A stretch of DNA of 64,000 bases from Isoetes taiwanensis (taxonomy: Eukaryota > Streptophyta > Lycopodiopsida > Isoetales > Isoetaceae). A model generated the notes under the pieces. It was not told where the DNA came from and searched no databases. It saw only the letters and a program-made list of their open reading frames with translations. Below are positions 1,675 to 24,728 of this stretch, piece by piece (the stretch's first letter is position 1; the number at the start of each line of letters is the position of its first letter). A program made the position numbers and the translations under genes. The DNA is taken from NCBI GenBank assembly GCA_021234155.1, contig JAJEKV010000053.1, positions 8,509,424 through 8,573,423 on the forward strand. The letters run 5' to 3'.

Positions 1675-4430
1675 TCAAACAACATCATAAAATAATACAT
1701 GAGTTTCTGAGTTCTCATCTAGCTCATCAGTCTTACTCCAAGTATCTACATCCTCCACATCAACAACATGTTGGGTCTCCAAGCAGGAGTCCCTATATTT
1801 GAGAAGTTCAATCACATACTTCCCTAAAATATCACCCCCCAATGTAAAAAGTGATGGAAGGTCATCATAGTGTATATCATATTCGTCTCTCAACTGCTCA
1901 TAAGCATGACATCTAAGTAAGAAATGGTCTTCATCCTCTACTTGATCTATGCCGCAGATCTTACAATATCTCAGATCCCTTGGTATGACATGTCCCCATC
2001 TCCCTACTTCTATCCCCAAATGATGTGAGCTCAAGCGGATTCTACAAATGGCATGTCTTTTTTGTATGGAGATGTTTTCCATCAAGTGTTCCACTGGTTC
2101 CAGATGAGAATTGATGTGAAACATGTGTAATATTATTTTGTTCTTTGGTTATGTCCACTTCTTCTTACGTATCTTATCTGAAATCATCCGAGTCTAATAA
2201 AATCATCTCATCCCAGGAAATGTCCCATTTGCTTAGCCATTCTCTCACATCATAGAAAATCCCTTTCCCTTGACTTGCCATTATAGCATTATATGTGATT
2301 CTTGTCTCCTTCATGAGCAATACTTTTTTGAGGTATAAGATACACCTAATAATTGCTTCCCTTTTCAAGGGCAAGAGTCCACTTTCTGTCATCATCATGG
2401 GATAACATGTTGAGTTTTTACTCCCAAATCCAACCTTAGGAATTTCTCAAGGACTTGCTCAATATCATCCCACAAGCATTGTGGGAGACTTGGCCCCCAA
2501 ATCTCACAACCATATAGCACTACATTCTGCTCCAATGAATGAAAGAGCCGTACTGAAGATCCCAAGACCAAAGGTGTCATTCCTACACATACTCTGGAGT
2601 GCATATAATGTTTTTTTGCCCCCTTCAATCCACTGCAAAATACAAGCATTCCATCTGTGATTTCTGTTGAACACAAGGCCCAAATATTTGTATGAATCAC
2701 ATAGATTTACTTGGATTCCTTTATAGCTAAAAGAGGATTCCTGTTTCAAAGTACCAACTGTCATAATATTTGTCTTCTCCAGATTTACCTGCATTCCTGT
2801 CTGGTCACAAGCAAATGCCAAGCCATCTAAATGTTTCTGCATGTGTTTCTTAGATCTTGCAAACATGACCACATCATCTGTGTATATCAATAGTTGGATC
2901 ACATATCTATGTAATTCCATGTTACCTGGACGATTCTCATGCAGCCAGTCTTCTAGACTGTCAATAAAGAGACCAAATAATGTAGAGGATAACGGGCAGC
3001 CCTGTTTAACTCCCACATTACTGTCTACACATCCCGGAACCTCTAGGGAGAACGACTGTGACAATTTCACCAATACTTTTTCATAAAGGACACAGACAGC
3101 ATCTCTAAGCTCATAAAGAACATTTAGAATATCCAGCCTCTTCCATAGTTGATCTCGTGGGACCTTATCAAAGCCTTTTTGAAATCAACAAATGCCATAA
3201 ACACTGGTTTTCTGGAACCATTCACATGATCAAATATAGTTTTTAAAACTAACAGTTGGTCTAAAGTGGACCTTGTGCAAAAACCAGCCTGAGACTCAAC
3301 TCATTTTTTATTTAGCTCTGTCTAAACATTTAACTTTTTTTCTAAAATACTAGAAAATAATTCTGAGAACAAACTGCTCACCATTATTGTTCAGTACTTG
3401 CTTGGTTCCTGTTTTGATCCGCCTTTATGCACAGGTACTACTTGATTCTAATACTAATCTTGCAATATTAAACATTCTTGCTATAATTTAGGTCGCCTTC
3501 CCATGAGAGACATGATATTTTATGTTCAACACAACTACGATATTGAGCTTTTAAACGTGGTTTAAGGAAATACTTCTGTTTCAGAATTATTGGTGGCACA
3601 ACAGGTTCTTTAATCCGCAAGCCGAAAAACAATAGAGTATGGTCTGATTCTAATGCTTCCTCCCCAACTATAAAATCGATAAGGGCCCCCAGGGATGTCT
3701 CTGACATAACCAGATAATCCACGGTACTTCTTGATTTGCATATGTTCTTCTTAGTACTAAAAAATCTGCTCAAACCATTACGTATCAAGAGGTTCGCACT
3801 GCAACAAAGGCTCAGGAAGTGCCTGACTGTTTCGGTGGTAATCGCATCTGGAGAATCCCTCTTTCTGCCACCTTTTTGTTGCTCAATTTCATCCATGGAT
3901 TCCAGCCACAACGTGTCTTTGTTCCCTACAAAGCTGGCATCCTGTGAATTACCCGTCCTCGCATTAAAATCCCCTGTTAAAATCACATCACCCTTCTCTT
4001 GAAATCTCAAGACATCCTGTTCAAATGCAAAAAATAAGTCATCACTGGAGGCATCAGTATCCGTATAAATTTGCTTATGTTTCGGAGCAAAATAACAGAC
4101 AATCAAGTAGAACAATGCATGGTAGCCCTTTATCTCTAACCATATGTATTGACAGTTTACATCTTTTCTTACTCCTTGTATTATATCTTTGAACTTCGGT
4201 CTTGTAAAGCAGGCAACATCACCATTTCCCATATCCATGTCTCTGAGCCTTTTGTTTTTGACAGAATAAATTAAATCAAAACCTTCAATCTCTGGTAGAG
4301 CGAACAGGTCATGTTCTTTTGTTTGCACAAAACATATAACATCAAAATGATCCAGAATCTCTTTCATGCTTTCTACCTTGCTGGTAGTTAGTCTGTTGAT
4401 GTTCCAGACTGCTATCTTGAGGTCTCCCAC
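1675..4430 (-). pseudogene. LINE ORF2 (endonuclease + reverse transcriptase), decayed
   Basis: Polyprotein for target-primed reverse transcription. The endonuclease starts MGDLKIAVWNINRL and carries VILTGDFNARTG (metal ligand D/N) and LESDHTLLFF (catalytic SDH), so all EN signatures survive. Downstream, in shifted frames, are the RT motifs FVDFKKA (about 3190), GVKQGCPLSSTLF (about 3030) and LLIYTDDVVMF (about 2890; YTDD where most LINEs have YADD). The C terminus has CKICGIDQVEDEDHFLLRC, a CCHC-like knuckle found at the 3' end of this LINE type. Several frameshifts separate 3468-3073, 2504-2395 and 2174-2124, so no functional ORF2 remains. Confidence 0.85.
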
Positions 4431-15345: not shown

Positions 15346-15379
15346 ATATAACAAGGTTTAAAATGAAACGCACTTATTT
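15346..15379 (+). repeat. T1 left terminal inverted repeat
   Basis: 34 bp beginning ATATAACAAGGTTTAAAATG and ending GCACTTATTT. Matches the reverse complement of 24695-24728 at 33 of 34 positions (G versus A at position 10). A short hairpin (CGCACTT/AAGTGCG) overlaps its inner edge. Confidence 0.92.
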
Positions 15380-15699
15380 AAGAAGTGCGTTTGAAAGATT
15401 CCTTTATAAAAATTGAAAACTTGAAAAAAACAGACAAAATAGGGAGCAAAATAGACATTCGGAATACCTCCAAAAAAGCAACATTTTTGAAGCCTTTTCA
15501 TTTTTAAAAGAGGGCAAAAAAAAAAAAAAAAGCTTGTTTTGAGGAGAGAGACATTAATTTTGATAACTCAGTGAGTATTTATTGTTGAAAATAGAAGGAA
15601 ATATAGTTTGTCTTTTTGCAAGCTTAATATAAGTACTAAGAAAATCAAACATAGGAAAGACAAAGAGTGTGAAATCATGGAGCAAGAAAGAGTTGTTCT

Positions 15700-16293
15700 G
15701 ATGCTATGGCAGATAGTGCACCGGTCCCTGAGGGTGAACACGTGGGTGCACAGGATCAATCCGCGGATCAGCGACCGGTGTCCAATGTGTGGTGCCTGTG
15801 TGGAGACCCTGGAGCATTGTATGTTTCTCTGCTCGGACATCCAGCCAGCATGGCAGTGGGTCCAGCGCCGCTTTCACACATCGCTTCAGAGTCAACAGGT
15901 TCTCTTGGGGGTGTATCCTCGGGGGTGGTCCCAGCCTCAGAGTCTGGCCTTCCATTTGTGTAAAGCGTGGTTACTGTGGCTCATTTGGAAGCGTTGGCAC
16001 ATGAAGGTGTTCAGGAATGAGGAGGTACAGCCTCGGGTTCTGATCCCGCAGTTAAGGTACAAATTATATCTCTCTTACCTGGCATCTCCTCGGAAGGAGC
16101 AGTTTAAGGCAGCTATCTGGGAAAGGACCCTTCTCATTGTAGACAGCATTGGCAGATTTATCCCGTGAGTCGTAGGTAGGTATATGTGTTATGTGGGTGC
16201 TCGCCCATGTGTGGGCAGGGGTACCCTAGTACCGCTCTTCTTGTACTTACGCTATATTAATATTATTTAGTTTCATCCTTCAAAAAAAAAAAA
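15700..16293 (+). mobile_element. 5'-truncated LINE with poly(A) and 13-bp target duplication
   Basis: Insertion into T1 flanked by the direct repeat AAAGAGTTGTTCT at 15687-15699 and 16294-16306. The insert encodes the C-terminal zf-RVT domain of a plant LINE ORF2: WQIVHRSLRVNTWV, then RCPMCGACVETLEHCMFLC (Cys/His cluster) and AWLLWLIWKRWHMKVFRNEE, with a stop at 16168. A 3' UTR ends in about 15 A residues. Textbook target-primed insertion. The frame is unbroken, so it is young and post-dates T1 arrival. The open frame extends left to 15608 only by chance read-in through T1 sequence. Confidence 0.93.
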
Positions 16294-16415
16294 AAAGAGT
16301 TGTTCTAATTAAGCATTGTTGAAGAGATAAAGCTTTCAATTTAAAAATCTTCATCAAAATATATTATAATTCTTAGCACAGAGTTTACAATGGAAGTAGT
16401 TTATAATTCTGTCTG

Positions 16416-16427
16416 TATAAATTTATA
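16416..16427. repeat. T1 palindrome copy over the methyltransferase stop codon
   Basis: Exact TATAAATTTATA. The TAA at 16425-16423 on the minus strand, which ends the methyltransferase frame after a Pro run, is part of this palindrome. Confidence 0.95.
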
Positions 16428-17184
16428 CGGGAGGTGGGGGAGGTGGCTCTTCCCAGTCCACCGGACTCTCGTACCCCTTAGGATCTGTCTCTTGCGAGGC
16501 CACAACAGCAGAGACGCCTCCTTCTGATTCCAATCCTACCGGCACAGGCGGTTTCTCGGGCACAGGCTGCACAGGCTCCAAGTCGACAAACTCCACCTCC
16601 TCATCTTTTCTCCCCGTAAGTGGAGGCTGGATTTCTGTATAAGTGCCTTTAACATCGCCAGCACCGTTCTTTGCTCCCAGTTCCTCGTTTTCATCAGGAA
16701 AGGATTCACAAGAGCTTATCCTAGTCCTGATGAAACTTATTTTATCCGGGTCCATGTCGACGGAGACAACATTGCGCCCCTGCTTAAGGGTGCAAACTGC
16801 TGTGGTGCCTGAGCCAGAAAATGCATCCAAGATCCAGTCTCCCGGGCGAGAAAACCACTGTATTAAATTATTAATTAGCCTCTGTGGCTTCTGATAATGG
16901 GATACCACAGCGCCTTGTCGCTGTGGATCTCTTAATTTTTGTAGAACAGCCGGAAACTGAAAAGCGTTGCAGGGAGGAGTCTTCTCATTCTGCGTATTGA
17001 AATGAACCATGTTTTTTTTGGCATCCACGCTGTAAAAACCTATATGCAAATGCTCAAAACAGCTTACTAAGCGCGGACCACCACCATGTTCCTTGACATT
17101 TGTTTTTAGCCTGCCAAACAATACAACAATTAAAAACTAGTAGAAAGAAAACAATGAAAATAAGTTAGTTCAGTGGTGTGGCGG

Positions 17185-17341
17185 TATAAATTTATACCAC
17201 GGTTGCCTTGCTGTATAAACTTATACCACGGTGCCGTGCCGTATGAATTTATACGAAGGTTGCCTTGCTGTATAAATTTATACCACGTTTGATCCAGCCG
17301 TATGAATTTAAACCTTGAGGCAACTGTGGTATAAATTTATA
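17185..17341. repeat. T1 palindrome cluster I (intron)
   Basis: Three exact TATAAATTTATA copies (17185, 17271, 17330) and three one- or two-base variants (17214, 17242, 17301), all inside the intron between methyltransferase exons 4 and 5 (17386-17111). Flanks alternate between CCACGGTTGCC and CCTTGCTG. Confidence 0.95.
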
Positions 17342-18407
17342 CCGTGGTGTTACAGTAAATAGAAAAGCAATAAATTTAAAGCTTACCATACGCAGTTTTC
17401 GAAGCCCGCGTTACAGACAGCTCCCAATGGTTTAAGCACCGACATCATCTGCAGGTCGGAATGAAAAATGATGACCCTCCAGTTTGCAGATGTCGTGACT
17501 TTTAGGTCGTCCAAAAAAGCACGGACTTGCACGTGCGTGAAAGCCTCCTCGTCAAAAGCGTTATCCTTAATTTTAAAGCCGTATGGAATATCTGCAATGC
17601 ACAATGTAAAATTTTGCTTGTCCAAAAGAGTTCCCAGCCTCGTGCAATCTCCCTGAACAACCCTGTACAAGCAGTCCTGACCAAATGTTGTAAATCTCTC
17701 ATAGCTAGTGTCAAAACTGCTAGTGCCGACTTCTTTTCCCTGCTCAATTGCCTTCAGTCTTTGCCTCTCCTCCTTGGCCCTACGAACCAGGTTTAAAAAT
17801 CCTGTTGGTAGCCCTTAACCTGTGAGACAAAGGCACGAAAACAAAAAATATTTTCTGCAAAATATACCCAGCCACTGAAGTTAACAGCATGCTCTCTGAT
17901 AATACTATCTGTAGTACAAGTTGGATATAAAAGCTTGCACTCCTCCCAGTCCTCTAGGTTTAGTTGCTTCATTAACTCGGCCTGGCAGGTGACAATGTCT
18001 TTCTGACTGCAGAGGGAAAAATGTTGTAAGACAAAATGAGGGAAAAAAGAACACGGCATAGCAAACGAGGCTTATGTCTTAGCTTCCTTGGCCATTTCGT
18101 CTAGAGTGAATTCCTTGGCCACAACTTTTTCTAAGAGTCGCACAAAAATTTCTTTGCTTTTTAAACCCTGTAGCTGCGTCCAGGGTACAATGCTCATGTT
18201 TTTTTGTTTTGCTTTACTACCTTTTTTTGGTTTTATTCCTGCAGAGCTAGCTTGTTCTTTTAGCTCACCATCTTCGAACATACAAAATATTCTTTCTTGA
18301 AGATCCCACACCTGTTAATGGTCGAACTCAAGTAGTTTAGTGTTGAATGGCGTACAAGTGTTTGTTGTGCAGTCTATTGTCTAAATGCACACGGTGGAAA
18401 GGCACGG

Positions 18408-18625
18408 TATAAATTTATACCGTGCCGAGGTAACGGTATAAATTTATACTGTGCCTGGTCACGGTATACGGTATAAATTTATACCCGTTACCTCGGCACG
18501 GTATAAATTTATACCGTGACCTGGCACGGTATAAATTTATACAGTGCCTAGTCACGGTATAAATTTATACCGCGGCCAGGCATGGTATAAATTTATATCG
18601 TGCCTGGTCATGGTATAAATTTATA
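18408..18625. repeat. T1 palindrome cluster II: eight copies, about 28-bp period
   Basis: Exact TATAAATTTATA starting at 18408, 18437, 18472, 18502, 18530, 18558, 18586 and 18614. Intervals are 29, 35, 30, 28, 28, 28 and 28 bp. Spacers are themselves partly inverted (GTGCCTGGTCAC / GTGACCTGGCAC). The array fills most of the intron between exons 2 and 3. Confidence 0.97.
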
Positions 18626-19728
18626 TCGTGACCAGGCTTCCATGGTTGATACAAATTTACAAAGTTCGAGGTTAATACACAAATTAGGCTATGTTAAGCA
18701 TACTAACGAAGACTAAATTAAAGCTTTTACTTACTTGACCATCTCTGAAAGCAAGCTGGAAGTAATTGTCGTACTGCTTCACAGCCATTATGGGCTTCTT
18801 ATCTGAATCATAGCTGAGGCAGCACTCTGTTACACAGGCTTCGCAAAGTTCTTGGAGCTTGTTTTTTTTTTGTTTTTTGAAGTCTTCTCCATGCACTTTT
18901 CTGAACTCTACATATTCTCGGTGCATGAAATGAATTTTGTCGATGAGGCTCATTTTTAATCTGAAGTCATTGTCGAGATTATGGCTCACAGCAATGACCT
19001 TTGCTTCTTTGTCTGTAACCCCCACGTAGATGTGTGCTTCGACACTCTTCCAGACTTCATTCCGACTGTCTTCTTTTGATAATTCTTTTCTTGCTTTGTA
19101 GATGTGTGTGCCTCCAAGTACATAGTAGGTGTAATCTTCGAAATCTGCCTTCTTATAATCTTTTAATTGGTTGCACTGACTTCTGTCTACCATCACAACT
19201 AGTGGCGACACATGTGCATGTGGATTCCTTCTCATTCTTTGCTTGAGAATAGCCACATGTGCCGCGTACAGCTTCCTAACCTGAAGCACTCTGACCCCAT
19301 CTTCATTTTTTGGTGGCCTCTTAATCGTGCTCAGTGTCAATGAAATGGTTTGCTTGAGGAGTTTGGTCTCATTAACCCTCTTCAAAATAGCACTTGACTT
19401 ATCAGACGACCGCACAACAATGTCTGCCCCAGGAGCCTTTTGGAGAGCTTCTGCTGACTCCTCTATGGTCAAGGCCTTTGTGGTTCGTGACCTTTTTTTG
19501 GTGGGAGGTTGTGTCTCTGTTACCAATGCATGTTTCTTGCTCCTCCCTCTTGTCACCACCGGTTCCTCCTCTTCCTCTTCTTGTTCCGAAACCTCGTCCT
19601 TTTCGACATCTTCTTGAGGAAGTGGGTACCACAAAGACCCTTGACCATTTCCTTTTCTTCACAAAGTATTACTGAGGACAAAATGTCCACTATGTCCTGT
19701 AATGCAGGGTAAATTAGAAAGATGACGG

Positions 19729-19740
19729 TATAAATTTATA
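19729..19740. repeat. T1 single palindrome copy in intron
   Basis: One exact TATAAATTTATA in the intron 19765-19697 between the first two visible exons. Confidence 0.95.
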
Positions 19741-20368
19741 CGTGAAGCCACTAAGACATACTTACATAGCCATTCTTGTAATCTTCCGCCATGTAATCAT
19801 GGACGTCTTTAGGTCTGCACATGCTTATGCGGAGCATTCTACTGTTTAGAATATAGAAGACTTCACCGTTGTCATTATTGCACTTCATAAAAATCTCATC
19901 TTCATTTTCTGTTGCAGGAAGGGTTATCATTTCCCCGGCGGGGTAGTAATCATCTTTGGTAAACTTCCCCCTCCCTGACTAGTTACACAAATAAAGGTAC
20001 GCCTCTGTGGGTTTGCGCTCTCTTGCATCCCTGTGTACGTACCACGTCTGGTCTGTCAGTTCATATGTTTGTGGCTCTGGTGGATTCGCCTTTGATGATT
20101 GGCCTCTCTGTGTGAACTTGATCTTTGTGCTGAAAAGGAGCAAAAAAACCAATTTTTACACCAAAAATACAGTTTTTCGCCACTATTTTGGACACTTTAA
20201 CTGTAAGAAAACTGGCTTAAAGGACCTAAAATGCACGCTATTTCAACCCTTTATTTGTGTCTTTTGACCTTTAAAACACAACATTAATACTAAATTTGTA
20301 AGGTTCAGGACATTTTTTTTAGACACTCGACACATTACGAGAATAGAAACCTTAAATGTTGTCTTCTG

Positions 20369-20740
20369 TATAAATTTATACCGAAATTGTTCTGGAACGG
20401 TATAAATTTATACGCCTCGAGCACGAGAGGTATAAATTTATACCGTTGCAGAACACTCGCGGTATAAATTTAAACGCGGTATCGAAGCGGTATAAATTTA
20501 TACCGTTCTGCGAGAACACGCGGTATAAATTTATAAATACTCGGCGAAGCGGTATAAATTTATACCGTTCTAGAACACATTCGGTATGTGTTCTAGAACG
20601 GTATAAATTTATACCGATCTTTCGGAGGCGTATAAATTTATACCGCGAAAGTGTTTCGCGAACGGTATAAATTTATACCTCTGCGTGCTTGAGGCTTATA
20701 AATTTATACCGATTCCGAACAATTTTGGTATAAATTTATC
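20369..20740. repeat. T1 palindrome cluster III: 12 copies, about 31-bp period
   Basis: Ten exact copies (20369, 20401, 20431, 20491, 20524, 20553, 20602, 20631, 20666, 20697) and two variants (20463, 20729). Successive intervals are mostly 28-35 bp, about three helical turns. The spacers contain further small inverted repeats such as GTTCTAGAAC near 20575-20600. The cluster lies between the divergent genes, upstream of the methyltransferase gene. Confidence 0.97.
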
Positions 20741-21208
20741 TGAGAAGGACCTTAGACTCAGCAGTTAAAAGAGGCGAAACTAGAATAGTACCGGAATAGA
20801 GACTTATTGGCCATGACCGTATGGATTCGCTTTTATACGTTAGGAGAAGCAAATTGGGGGGGAGAGGGGGTATATAAAGCGCAGTATGGCCTTCGACTCC
20901 GAAAGCGGCGATATATAGAAAATAGGGTGACCGGCGCCGGGCTTAAGTACCTCTGTTAAGTGCCGTTTCGTATAGCGTTTCTCCATAAAGTTTCCAATAC
21001 AAGTGTCTGTGAGTTTTCATATAAATTTATACCGTTTCTGTTCTATGTTGCCCTCCTCTGTATAAATTTATACCATCTCTGTATAAATTTATACAGTCTG
21101 CCGCTTCAAGTTTCCCTTCTCTGTATAAATTTATACCATCTCTGTATAAATTTATACCGCCTTACGTAGGTATACATTTATACGATTGTGACGCTTAACT
21201 TTTGAGTA
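20741..21208. promoter_or_regulatory. Shared divergent promoter region of T1
   Basis: Region between palindrome clusters and the transposase start. A TATA box reading TATATAAAG at 20871-20879 lies about 330 bp before the transposase ATG, and ATATATAG near 20911 could serve the minus strand. It is flanked on both sides by palindromes, each of which reads TATAAAT on both strands. Confidence 0.5.
21020..21182. repeat. T1 palindrome cluster IV: 21-bp paired copies
   Basis: Exact copies at 21020, 21061, 21082, 21124 and 21145, with a variant at 21171. The pairs 21061/21082 and 21124/21145 are each 21 bp apart (two helical turns) and share the spacer CCATCTCTG. It sits in the transposase 5' UTR, 27-190 bp before the ATG. 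Confidence 0.97.
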
Positions 21209-24200
21209 TGGCTCGAGAGAAAATAGCGCAGAGCCTCCAACTCCTCGTTCATGAGGGCTTCCTCCCTGCAATGACTTTCACACCTCCTCCTCGACACCGT
21301 GAAGTAGCCACGAAAAATTACGCCTCCGATATTCAAACCCCGGCTACGTTGAGTTTACTCGGCCACGACCACCTCGGCTTACACCACCAGTTCAATTTAC
21401 TCCACCACACCCTGCTCCTGAACGTCGTTTGCCCCCACCAATGCGTTTTACTCCACCACAAGCTACAGAGCTCAGACTACCTCCTACAGTTCATTTTAGT
21501 ACGTCTCCCATAGTCCACCGTAGGCTGCCTCCCCAGAGGTAAATCACGCCAACTCCATCCATTTCGCTAATTGGTACTACAACAAGTGGGAGCGGTCGCC
21601 CCGCAACTCCCCGTGTTCTCACGACACTTCAGGAGCTGGTCAATTACGTCACCAACCTCGATTACTTTTTCCCAGAGAGAGGGAAAGCACCTCCCCCCCA
21701 GGACTTGCCCACACCAAACCTCTCAGCATCTACTAGTACGCCTCATGTTGATCTCTCAGACGAAGAAACACCTCATGTTGATCTCCCAGACGAGGACCTA
21801 CCAAAGCCACAAGACTCTATGTTCGAATTCAAAGCTCCGGCAAGTAAGAATCTTAAGCGAAACTTACGCAAGAAAGCATGTACAACCCAAAGAAGAAAGA
21901 AACTCATGGACGAGGCTCACTTGAGGGCAACACATACAAAGCACTGTTGTTCTCAACGTTGTTTGCTTAAGATTGGACTAAGGGAATTGAGGTTGATTCG
22001 TGATAGTCACAGTTCAATGACTCTGCTAGACCAAAGGGGCTACTTAGCCTTCAATATTAGGCCAGATTATGGTGAGAAGTTTACTTACACAGCTGGTGGC
22101 CACACCGTCTGTCAAACAGCCTTTAAATTGATTCATGCTTTAGGCAGCAGACGACTTGACCGTCTGAAGAAAAGGCTTGACAAGAATCCAGGCATTAATG
22201 ACTACTGCCATTCATGAGGTATATCCAGAATTCATGCCCTTCAATGTGTTTCCTGGATGGAAGGTTCCTTTAAGGAGTCTTGCGAGAAACTCCCTAACAA
22301 TCCTATGTACCACTTGAGTGACAACTTCACGAAACGTGAAGTCTACGATAATTATAAGGACATGTGTGTTGAGGCTGGAGAACGCCATGTCTGCTACTCT
22401 TACTTCACTGTGCTCTGGAAAAAAGAGTTTTCTCGCGTGTCCATTCCTAGAAAGCACCGGATGTCTGTTTGTGCTACATGCTCTGAATTAAAAGCTCAGA
22501 GACAAAATGCAAGGACACTTCACACTAAAAGTAAGCTTCCAAAACGTGTTCTTGCCTAGTTCTACTTAAAAGTAGGTTCTTTCCTAAACATATTTCCATT
22601 TCAGATGAATTGAAAGAGAAACTGAACAAGCACAGAGAACAACAATCTTTGGAAAGGAAAAAATTGACAAAACATAGGAAGAAAGCACTAGAACAACCAC
22701 TCAACTACACATCGGTTGTTATTGATGGAATGGACCAGAAGAAGACCACCCTACCACATTTTGTCAATGTGCCTAAGGATGCTGCTGAAGAAGATTTCAT
22801 ACACCTGCATGTTGTTGGTGCTATGGTATTTAATGGAAAACTATCTTGCAAGGCATTTTTGAACTATCCAAACATTCATGCTGATCCAAATCTCACTATC
22901 ACAATATTGAATAAGCTTCTTTCCAATCTAGAACATATACCACCGGTTCTATATCTTCAGCTAGACAACACGACAAGAGAAAATAAGAATCATGCGTTGT
23001 TTGCTTACTGTGCTATGCTAGTTGAGAAACAAATCTTCAAGAAGGTGAAGATTGGTTTCCTGCCTTGTTGGTCATACACACGATCAAATTGATCAGATGT
23101 TCAGTAGGTTCTCTAAACGTCTTGCTCGAAAAAAAGCTCTCAGCCTCCAGCAATGATTGAGGTTATCCAAGATTCCTACAATCCTCGTCCAGACATCGAG
23201 TTATTAGAAGAAACTTATGATTTCAAAGAATGGATTTTTCGGAGAGATCAACTGGGTCACTGTGCTATTGAGCCCTTGAGAAACATTACATTTCAGCATC
23301 AGATCAAAATTTCACTTGTAGATGGCAAGGCCATCTTACAAGGAAAGAAATATGCCACATCCTTGCAGTGGCAGCCAGCAGCAGGTATTCACTTCATTCG
23401 CACCATCCCCAATACTAGTTCTATGCTCTCTGCAGAGCAAATGCCTCTAAAAAGCTTGAAAGAAATCACAAAGAGTAAAAAGGAGGGAAGAGCATTTGAC
23501 TCAGACAAATCATTGGATTATATTGAGACAAGTATTGGTCGTGCTCTAACCACTTTGGGGAGGCAGATGCTTTATGGTGGCCTCGTTTTTTTTCGCGAAG
23601 CGTGACATGTTGCAAGCTTCATTACAAGGTCGAAGACCAGTTAGATTCAACTGGCCATCTAGGCAAACTCTCCCTGTGCAAGTTGAGAATCAAGAGGAAC
23701 ATGTAGAGATAATGGCTAGCTCAGATGAAGATGACAGAGTCATGTACACTGGCCCCAGACGCACGGCACAACAAGTTGCTTTCGAGTCTCGGTTCGATCT
23801 CGAGAGATTGAGAAAGGAATGCTCATAACCGTCGTCGGTGATAATGATGAATCACGGGAAGCCATTCGGCTAGCTAAAGTCTTGGAGGTAACAAGAGAGG
23901 ATGGAATTCCCACTCAATTAAAAGTGCACTGGATGAGAACAAATGCTGCCAATGCTTTCAGTGGGAGTTATACTTTGGAGATGGTAAAAACAGGAGTGGG
24001 AAAGAGAGCAAAGTCCAAAGCAAACACTGTTGTCATAGATCTAGCTGAAGTAAAGGTTCTTGCATATGACTTTGTTCTGACTGCTGCTAATAAGTTACGT
24101 ATGGTCACTCAAACTTTAATAAGGTCGGCATGTGGATTAGACAAACAACCTAGAAAGGTGGCCAAAAAAGATGATGATGAAGACTCACTTGTAGACAGTG

Positions 24201-24334
24201 AGGAAGAAGATCGTTCGAGTACATCCAGTTTTGAGAGTGAAGCTGAGGATGAAGGCTCAAATGATCAGGGATTAAATGAGTCTGAGGATGAGATGCATCC
24301 TGATATTGCTGCAAAATGTAAGTTTGTCCGATGA
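21209..24334 (+). pseudogene. DUF7869-type transposase of T1, frameshifted
   Basis: DUF7869-family protein, a plant and animal group that I take to be RNase-H-fold transposases. The N-terminal part has a Cys/basic block (ATHTKHCCSQRCLLKIGLREL, about 21930) and an HTH-like region (GGHTVCQTAFKLIHALGSRR, about 22100). An intron lies at 22531-22604 (GTAAGC...TTTCAG). The core carries VIDGMDQKKT (first acidic residue, about 22720) and LYLQLDNTTRENKN (about 22960). The VGHTHDQIDQMF block (about 23075-23105) appears only after a 1-nt frame change. Further shifts occur near 23150, at an 8-T run at about 23590 and near 23822. The acidic C terminus ends at 24334. The N terminus from ATG 21209 does not stay in frame with the core. 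Recognisable throughout but not translatable as written. Confidence 0.8.
22531..22604 (+). other. Intron in T1 transposase
   Basis: 74-bp intron with donor GTAAGC and acceptor CCATTTCAG, joining ACTAAAA to ATGAATTG in a continuing frame (TKNELKEKL). Shows the transposase is a spliced eukaryotic gene. Confidence 0.75.
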
Positions 24335-24694
24335 CTCGAACATGTAAAGAACAGAAAGTGCAGGTAATGGGTGTTTGTCAAAATGTCCTATATTTTTGAC
24401 AATTTTGTTCATAATCTTGAATATATCACTTCTTTGTCAATCTATTACCCTTGCTATTTTTTTTATTGCCCTTTTTTTGCTACACTTTATATAAGTAACT
24501 ATTTTTTGTTCTAAATTAGGAGGATGAAAATTGCTATTTAAAATTTTGCTTGGAAGTTATGTTCAATGAACCCCTTAAAAAGGGTACCTAAATTACCTAA
24601 ATTGTCACACCTGTCACAAAAAAACCTTAAAATGGACTTTTTAGGGGAATTTTAGGGAATCTTTCAAAGATTCCTTTTGAATTGCGTTTGAAGC

Positions 24695-24728
24695 AAATAA
24701 GTGCGTTTCATTTTAAACTTTGTTATAT
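24695..24728 (-). repeat. T1 right terminal inverted repeat
   Basis: Reverse complement begins ATATAACAAAGTTTAAAATG. One mismatch in 34 to the left TIR. Confidence 0.92.

Follow-up and report, generated by a model that had tools for sequence, protein, structure and literature searches.

A DUF7869 transposon of Isoetes taiwanensis carries a ParB-methyltransferase gene and clade-specific palindrome arrays that may be its targets

The window analyzed here, 64,000 nucleotides of contig JAJEKV010000053.1 (positions 8,509,424 to 8,573,423) from Isoetes taiwanensis, contains at 15346–24728 (window coordinates) a single insertion of a high-copy transposon with terminal inverted repeats (TIRs). Its transposase gene on the plus strand and its ParB-methyltransferase gene on the minus strand are arranged divergently, and its non-coding DNA holds arrays of a 12-bp palindrome whose center differs between clades of related elements. 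We propose, with a probability of about 0.6, that the enzyme recognizes and methylates the palindromes of its own element, which would aid the element's promoters against silencing or set the levels of the two divergent genes. The arrays are the best clue to function and had been missed by the initial annotation, which was made from the letters of the window.

The palindrome TATAAATTTATA, the core of GGTATAAATTTATACC, occurs 28 times in the window, every time inside the element (dinucleotide-shuffle mean 0.01), and GTATAAATTTATAC with up to two mismatches was found 34 times inside the element and nowhere else in the window. Other palindromic 12-mers were present at most twice each, an (AT)n run excepted. 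This control, together with the C+G-containing site of clade III, ruled out that the palindromes are generic TA-rich repeats. Fifteen exact sites are intergenic, three, eight and one lie in introns of the methyltransferase gene, and one is at its 3′ end; thus 27 of the 28 are outside coding exons, and the remaining site (16416–16427) overlaps the stop codon of exon E. Both the transposase gene of the window element and the neighborhood of its right end lacked exact palindromes. Loci L019–L041 contain 283 exact clade I sites, with spacings that peak at 28–32 bp, and none of the site centers falls within 66,505 exon-homologous bases. Intron D, compared across 23 copies (28 tried), was 96.8% identical at site columns vs 90.7% elsewhere, a result equaled by one of 228 circular shifts.

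Elements with diverged ParB exons carry a different palindrome. The three sites share GTAT-N6-ATAC and have the centers AAATTT (clade I, which includes the window), GAATTC (clade II) and TCCGGA (clade III). In the clade II locus L039, whose ParB exon is 57% identical to that of the window, we found no TATAAATTTATA; of its four TATGAATTCATA, intron B holds three, and the other lies upstream of the gene. The clade III loci L043 and L044 (ParB exons 44–51% identical to the window's) had eight and seven TATTCCGGAATA, mostly within TGTATTCCGGAATACA and often as part of a longer dyad; these lie upstream of the gene and in introns, 41–43 bp apart within arrays. Two further clade III loci, for which upstream DNA alone was fetched, had four core III sites each. 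When L039, L043 and L044 were shuffled 200 times each, no palindromic 12-mer appeared more than twice. Among 45 loci, of which L001–L018 partly overlap later loci and the window, 31 had only core I, two only core II, two only core III and none had two types; the 10 site-free loci are either short end pieces or copies in which little or none of the methyltransferase is left. L042, with part of exon E and no palindromes, was assigned to no clade.

Genome-wide, the clade III sequence GTATTCCGGAATAC was present 3720 times (backward control, 0; about 7 expected by composition), and 36 of 50 among the matches listed had a neighbor no more than 200 bp distant, most commonly at 42 bp; these sites were assessed by total count and spacing. 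The clade II sequence GTATGAATTCATAC occurred 64 times vs 11 for its backward control, and 22 of 50 among the matches listed lay within 5 kb of one of nine clade II ParB loci, where 0.003 would be expected.

The transposase is linked to the diverged methyltransferase as well. At the clade III locus C1052 (L048), a DUF7869 transposase gene lies upstream of the methyltransferase gene on the opposite strand (PF25273 E-values of 1.8e-18 and 9.7e-16 in two open reading frames (ORFs)); the longer pieces of this gene product share 36–54% identity with the window transposase. The transposase gene has no GTAT-N6-ATAC site, as judged from this one clade III locus. Because C1052 keeps a divergent DUF7869 gene, the gene pair is probably old, and sequence comparison indicates that transposase and ParB-methyltransferase travelled together while both diverged by about half.

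Three observations on these clades stand apart. Clade III (L043, L044, L046, L047 and L048) forms an abundant second ParB-methyltransferase/DUF7869 clade (best 138 of 4088 candidates scored) with long open frames as well as its palindrome arrays, and may be the more recently active clade. At G000 C1060:6302120-6305241, a place not among the listed ParB matches, there is a cluster of five clade II palindromes with the spacing seen in clade II elements; this is perhaps a truncated or unscored copy. In L045, a reverse-strand region (~2993–3538) upstream of the clade II gene and on the same strand has weak transposase-like similarity (21–25%), possibly a nested other element or a different arrangement.

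The methyltransferase gene is spliced and runs on the minus strand from ~20129 to 16423 with six recognized exons, whose borders were taken from splice-site words and comparison with other copies rather than from transcripts. Its product joins a ParB-CTPase-fold domain to an amino-methyltransferase of permuted (beta) type. Exon E scored 54.9 bits against PF01555 (cut-off 26.7), and the relatives P0027, P0030 and P0007 likewise exceeded the cut-off. The motif IV-like ADIPYGF of exon D precedes the motif I DAFSGSGTT of exon E in the sense of the gene, the permuted order of the beta class of N6/N4 amino-methyltransferases; the assignment to this class in the initial annotation is thereby borne out. 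The nearest solved methyltransferase to the Adiantum homologue P0027 was M.RsrI (E = 6e-6), one of seven solved sequences matched, CcrM among them. For exon E itself, the best NCBIfam model was the adenine-specific CcrM (E = 3e-11, far below the cut-off of the model). Both matches are confined to the part around motif I, and they lean toward adenine as the substrate without settling it. A Foldseek search (pdb_via) assigned the ParB-CTPase fold to the domain in exon B, which is followed by a helical region; canonical ParB proteins have a parS-binding HTH and a CTP-dependent clamp. Sequence profiles gave weak ParB-side signals only, DUF6551 (best E = 0.009, in six of 12 members) and phrog_723 ParB (0.083), and a profile search of PDB sequences yielded only weak sulfiredoxin matches (E = 1.3 and 2.6) among unrelated ones. 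A Pfam "LIP" match and similar weak matches were judged to be chance.

We then considered whether the two genes are maintained together. The left 155 bp of the element was searched in the 1.66-Gb genome, with the best 40 of 1187 candidates scored and the window excluded, and 20 copies were analyzed, each with 10 kb from the methyltransferase-side end; both the seeding and the 10-kb cut bias the co-occurrence counts that follow. At least 92% of exon E was present in 15 copies, about a third in two and none in three. Transposase homology was found in 13 of the 20, all 13 of which also have the methyltransferase, and in no copy was the transposase alone, although such copies may exist elsewhere in the genome. 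The central claim of the initial annotation, a transposon with a ParB-like/methyltransferase gene beside its transposase, is real. That annotation had named TIR copies lacking the methyltransferase as evidence against itself; the only such copies were the five with a third or none of exon E, and these also lacked transposase homology.

In a genome search with exon E, 150 matches were scored out of 3373 candidates; these were 64–100% identical and many were stop-free. The ratio of nonsynonymous to synonymous substitution (dN/dS) had a median of 0.14 for exon E (range 0.06–0.42; nine copies, 36 pairs; nine of the 10 listed stop-free copies, the short L038 left out) and of 0.10 for exon D (0.06–0.62; eight of 17 copies, 28 pairs). 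For the ParB exon we compared four clade I copies (the window, L030, L031 and L040), omitting L038, in which a stretch is shifted. Their six pairs gave a median of 0.05 (0.05–0.07), and synonymous sites were close to saturation, at a median proportion of 0.71. No ratio is given for comparisons across clades, where synonymous sites were saturated (L045 excluded). The choice of stop-free copies may bias the ratios somewhat downward. Open copies elsewhere in the genome are thus under purifying selection, and the protein appears to have been kept functional over a long divergence. The window copy itself is broken: exon A contains a TAG, the frame changes where exon B begins, and the transposase is spread over several frames.

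In the mechanism that we favor, the enzyme would recognize the dense arrays of GTAT-N6-ATAC palindromes, whose central hexamer differs by clade, that lie in the promoter region of the divergent genes and in the introns of the enzyme's own gene. It would methylate these sites, with adenine as the likeliest substrate. The palindromic form of the site could allow the mark to be renewed once the DNA has replicated. Either this mark or the protein clustered at the sites would keep the element's promoters accessible in the face of host silencing or set the level of both divergent genes, an effect limited to the element's own copies. Since the arms are constant and the center is variable, separate readers are conceivable: the ParB/helical part might read the arms, and the target-recognition part of the methyltransferase the center. 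That the protein binds and methylates its own palindrome is the step in which we have most confidence; adenine as the modified base is probable with somewhat less assurance. As for purpose, an active state of its own promoters maintained against silencing is a tentative choice, suggested by analogy, and regulation of those promoters a more doubtful one. The wider view stands at about even odds: a prokaryotic-type self-marking system of a eukaryotic transposon family, its sites, with constant GTAT...ATAC arms and a clade-specific hexamer, placed many times over (by the dozen in clade I) in the promoter region and introns of the element, so that the enzyme and its site change in step between clades and act as private epigenetic addresses.

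Several observations weigh against this mechanism. The arrays could spread by recombination without being the target of any protein. Clade II sites are few (four exact in L039, one in L045), and 28 of 50 GTATGAATTCATAC sites among the matches listed are near none of the nine clade II ParB loci. Conversely, the clade II ParB locus C986 has no GTATGAATTCATAC within 5 kb among the matches listed, nor do C1067 and C1089, both of which are beyond the range of that list. At C1060:7001871 a clade II site has a clade I ParB exon ~1.3 kb away, and another such site lies ~150 bp from a window-like methyltransferase exon (C925). The comparison covers three clades of one genome, with two loci read for clade II and four for clade III. 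On the protein side, canonical motif IV is (D/N/S)PP(Y/F), e.g., DPPY or SPPY, and the corresponding residues are DIPY in the window and DAPY in the Adiantum proteins P0007 and P0027. The ParB-like domain of the initial annotation holds at the level of fold and not of profile, as PF02195 was not among the profile matches of the 12 members at E ≤ 1.

The explanation that competes best, which we nevertheless consider unlikely, is that the palindromes serve as sites at which a host or transposase regulator controls the divergent promoters and introns, with the methyltransferase active elsewhere, e.g., at the termini. More than half of the sites (15 of 28) do lie between the two divergent genes, and the link from site to ParB-methyltransferase is a proposed one. 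However, sites also fill the introns of the methyltransferase gene, they are absent near the right end, in the transposase gene and in the transposase region of the clade III locus that was read, and one would not expect a host factor to change its site along with the methyltransferase clade. Restriction-like addiction or self/non-self marking, in which methylation would shield the element from a nuclease that it encodes or label copies so that their transposition is controlled, seems quite improbable to us. It would suit the bacterial modification enzymes to which the methyltransferase is related, and the clade II center GAATTC is the site of M.RsrI; yet among ten ORFs scanned no nuclease family reached its curated cut-off, the matches being to the methyltransferase, DUF7869 and the inserted long interspersed element (LINE). 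Slightly less credible still is that the palindromes are functionless by-products of tandem duplication and that the clade differences are drift. Tandem arrays with typical spacings, 28–32 bp in clade I and 41–43 bp in clade III, are what duplication would leave, but the sites of intron D are more conserved than the spacers, the dyads stay perfect while the center changes between clades, and similar non-coding places are occupied in all three. Finally, that this is the already known ParB-methyltransferase accessory gene found opposite the transposase in Ectocarpus Sola1-1_Ec32, and nothing further, is hardly tenable, as the string "palindrom" is absent from the main text of PMC12477816, whose passages on the gene describe no target arrays.

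For ParB-methyltransferase genes in transposons, no target was identified in the open literature searched, and the clade-specific palindromes are a predicted site. This prediction comes with positive and negative controls and is directly testable in native long-read data. If it is correct, the element would represent a sequence-specific, self-targeted modification system in plants and a prokaryote-type counterpart of VANC anti-silencing. It would also be a possible source of sequence-directed plant amino-methyltransferases and a concrete place to look for real, localized N6-methyladenine or N4-methylcytosine in plant DNA, a disputed subject.

The features of the window element are collected in Table 1. 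Its inverted arms span 34 nt and are 97% complementary, and the initial annotation had given the TIR as 34 bp. Perfect 4-bp direct duplications lie directly outside AACAAGG...CTTTGTT in the window and in all eight other two-ended copies, so the TIR measures 30 bp and the ATAT that flanks it in the window is the target duplication, which rules out the 34-bp length. Both ends were found in eight of the 20 fetched copies, 8.5–9.7 kb apart (up to nine mismatches allowed); one flank is common to L027 and L028, which leaves eight independent insertions with the window counted. L027/L028 (G000 C929, ~62 kb apart) and L025/L026 (C963, ~74 kb apart) are same-contig pairs with identical printed flanks, which suggests segmental duplication of an insertion with its surroundings. 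The DUF7869-type transposase called in the initial annotation was confirmed by PF25273 (22535–23092, E = 1.6e-27; 23117–23605, E = 6.7e-4, the latter below the curated cut-off). A 4-bp target-site duplication is a feature of Sola elements (PMC10741241). The element is a DUF7869-transposase TIR transposon, Sola-like by the 4-bp duplications of the window and the eight other two-ended copies. Sola elements have a DDD transposase of their own type; the transposase here was identified by DUF7869 (PF25273). The LINE fragment in the window copy is 5′-truncated, foreign to the element family and absent from all copies spanning the site (17 of the 20 fetched).

Table 1. Features of the transposon in the window (positions in window coordinates).
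Feature	Position	Strand	Basis
Left target-site duplication, ATAT, 4 bp	15346..15349	.	Eight other two-ended copies also have 4-bp duplications
Left TIR, 30 bp, AACAAGGTTTAAAATG...	15350..15379	+	Arm comparison and other copies
LINE fragment (zf-RVT, poly-A) inserted in window copy; 12-bp duplication AAGAGTTGTTCT at both ends	15688..16306	+	PF13966, E = 1.5e-6
Palindrome array: 28 exact TATAAATTTATA, 23 GTATAAATTTATAC, 11 GGTATAAATTTATACC	16416..21156	.	Exact matching
Methyltransferase exon E, motif I DAFSGSGTT, PF01555	16423..17111	-	Tested ORF 16423-17136
Intron D, 3 exact palindromes	17112..17385	-	Site count
Methyltransferase exon D, motif IV ADIPYGF	17386..17819	-	ORF and copies
Exon C, 3′ border approximate	17870..18006	-	Comparison of copies
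Exon B2; 3′ splice border non-canonical in window copy	18083..18311	-	Comparison of copies
Intron B, 8 exact palindromes 28–35 bp apart	18312..18734	-	Site count
Exon B, ParB-CTPase-fold domain and helical region; frame change near 5′ end in window copy	18735..19696	-	Fold search
Exon A, first recognized coding exon; in-frame TAG near 19979 in window copy	19766..20129	-	Comparison of copies
Divergent intergenic region, 15 of 28 exact TATAAATTTATA	20369..21156	.	Site count
DUF7869 transposase gene region, coding sequence split among several frames in window copy	21543..24334	+	ORFs and PF25273
DUF7869 domain, two ORFs	22535..23605	+	E = 1.6e-27 and 6.7e-4
Right TIR, 30 bp	24695..24724	-	Arm comparison and other copies
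Right target-site duplication, ATAT	24725..24728	.	Comparison with other copies

The named homologues of the methyltransferase are mostly fern proteins. A single-query protein search returned five proteins (three from Adiantum nelumboides, two from ENA) and a profile search returned 53, of which 46 are from A. nelumboides or A. capillus-veneris, six from ENA/JGI and one is EukProt Gb_10123. We take the prefix of the latter to denote Ginkgo, and its model seemingly lacks motif IV. The profile search scored the best 8000 candidates and needs shared 5-residue words; algal relatives were not retrieved.

Such relatives have nevertheless been described. The 21.5-kb Sola1-1_Ec32 of the brown alga Ectocarpus encodes a 1104-aa protein with ParB-like and N4C/N6A methyltransferase domains on the strand opposite its transposase, and the passages on it cite green- and red-algal cases and already propose that such proteins may both bind and modify the transposon's own sequence (PMC12477816). 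The initial annotation knew of no described plant transposon with this gene pair, but both the pair and the idea of self-modification have precedents. Sola1-1_Ec32 and the Isoetes element are both DNA transposons with the same gene arrangement, and they differ in size (21.5 kb vs ~8.5–9.7 kb for Isoetes copies), in host and in the arrays with their clade-specific change, which the passages on Sola1-1_Ec32 do not mention. In the open literature searched we recognized no account of such arrays with a ParB-methyltransferase and found no papers on DUF7869; "ParB" is absent from the accessible part of PMC12636532.

Other systems share single traits, as far as the relevant passages of each source go. 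Fusions of ParB-CTPase and N6_N4-methyltransferase domains are frequent in phages (PMC12704722). They have the same domain pairing and are likewise tied to mobile elements, but they belong to phages and prophages, and the passages on them describe no transposon arrays. Fungal DNA transposons with TET/JBP genes also carry a DNA-modification enzyme, in their case a dioxygenase rather than a methyltransferase, and belong to other transposase groups (PMC12730594). The bdelloid N4CMT is, like the enzyme here, a PF01555-type permuted amino-methyltransferase in a eukaryote, but it is a host gene with a chromodomain, and ParB is unmentioned in the available text (PMC8885841).

The closest parallel in layout is VANDAL21 of Arabidopsis, whose VANC21 protein binds motif arrays located in introns as well as in non-coding DNA between genes and at the termini; these targets differ from one related element to another (PMC5735166). 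Both systems have a transposon-encoded accessory protein and short motifs arranged as tandem repeats in introns and upstream DNA, and the change of arrays with the protein was found here too. VANC carries DUF1985/DUF287 and works through the loss of host DNA methylation, whereas the protein here is a ParB-fold methyltransferase, and the VANC motif YAGTATTAC/T is non-palindromic, unlike the palindromes described here (PMC5735166). The array layout is strikingly like that of VANDAL21. As DUF1985/DUF287 were not among the Pfam matches of five exon ORFs (E ≤ 0.1), the ParB-methyltransferase would work like VANC without being a member of that family.

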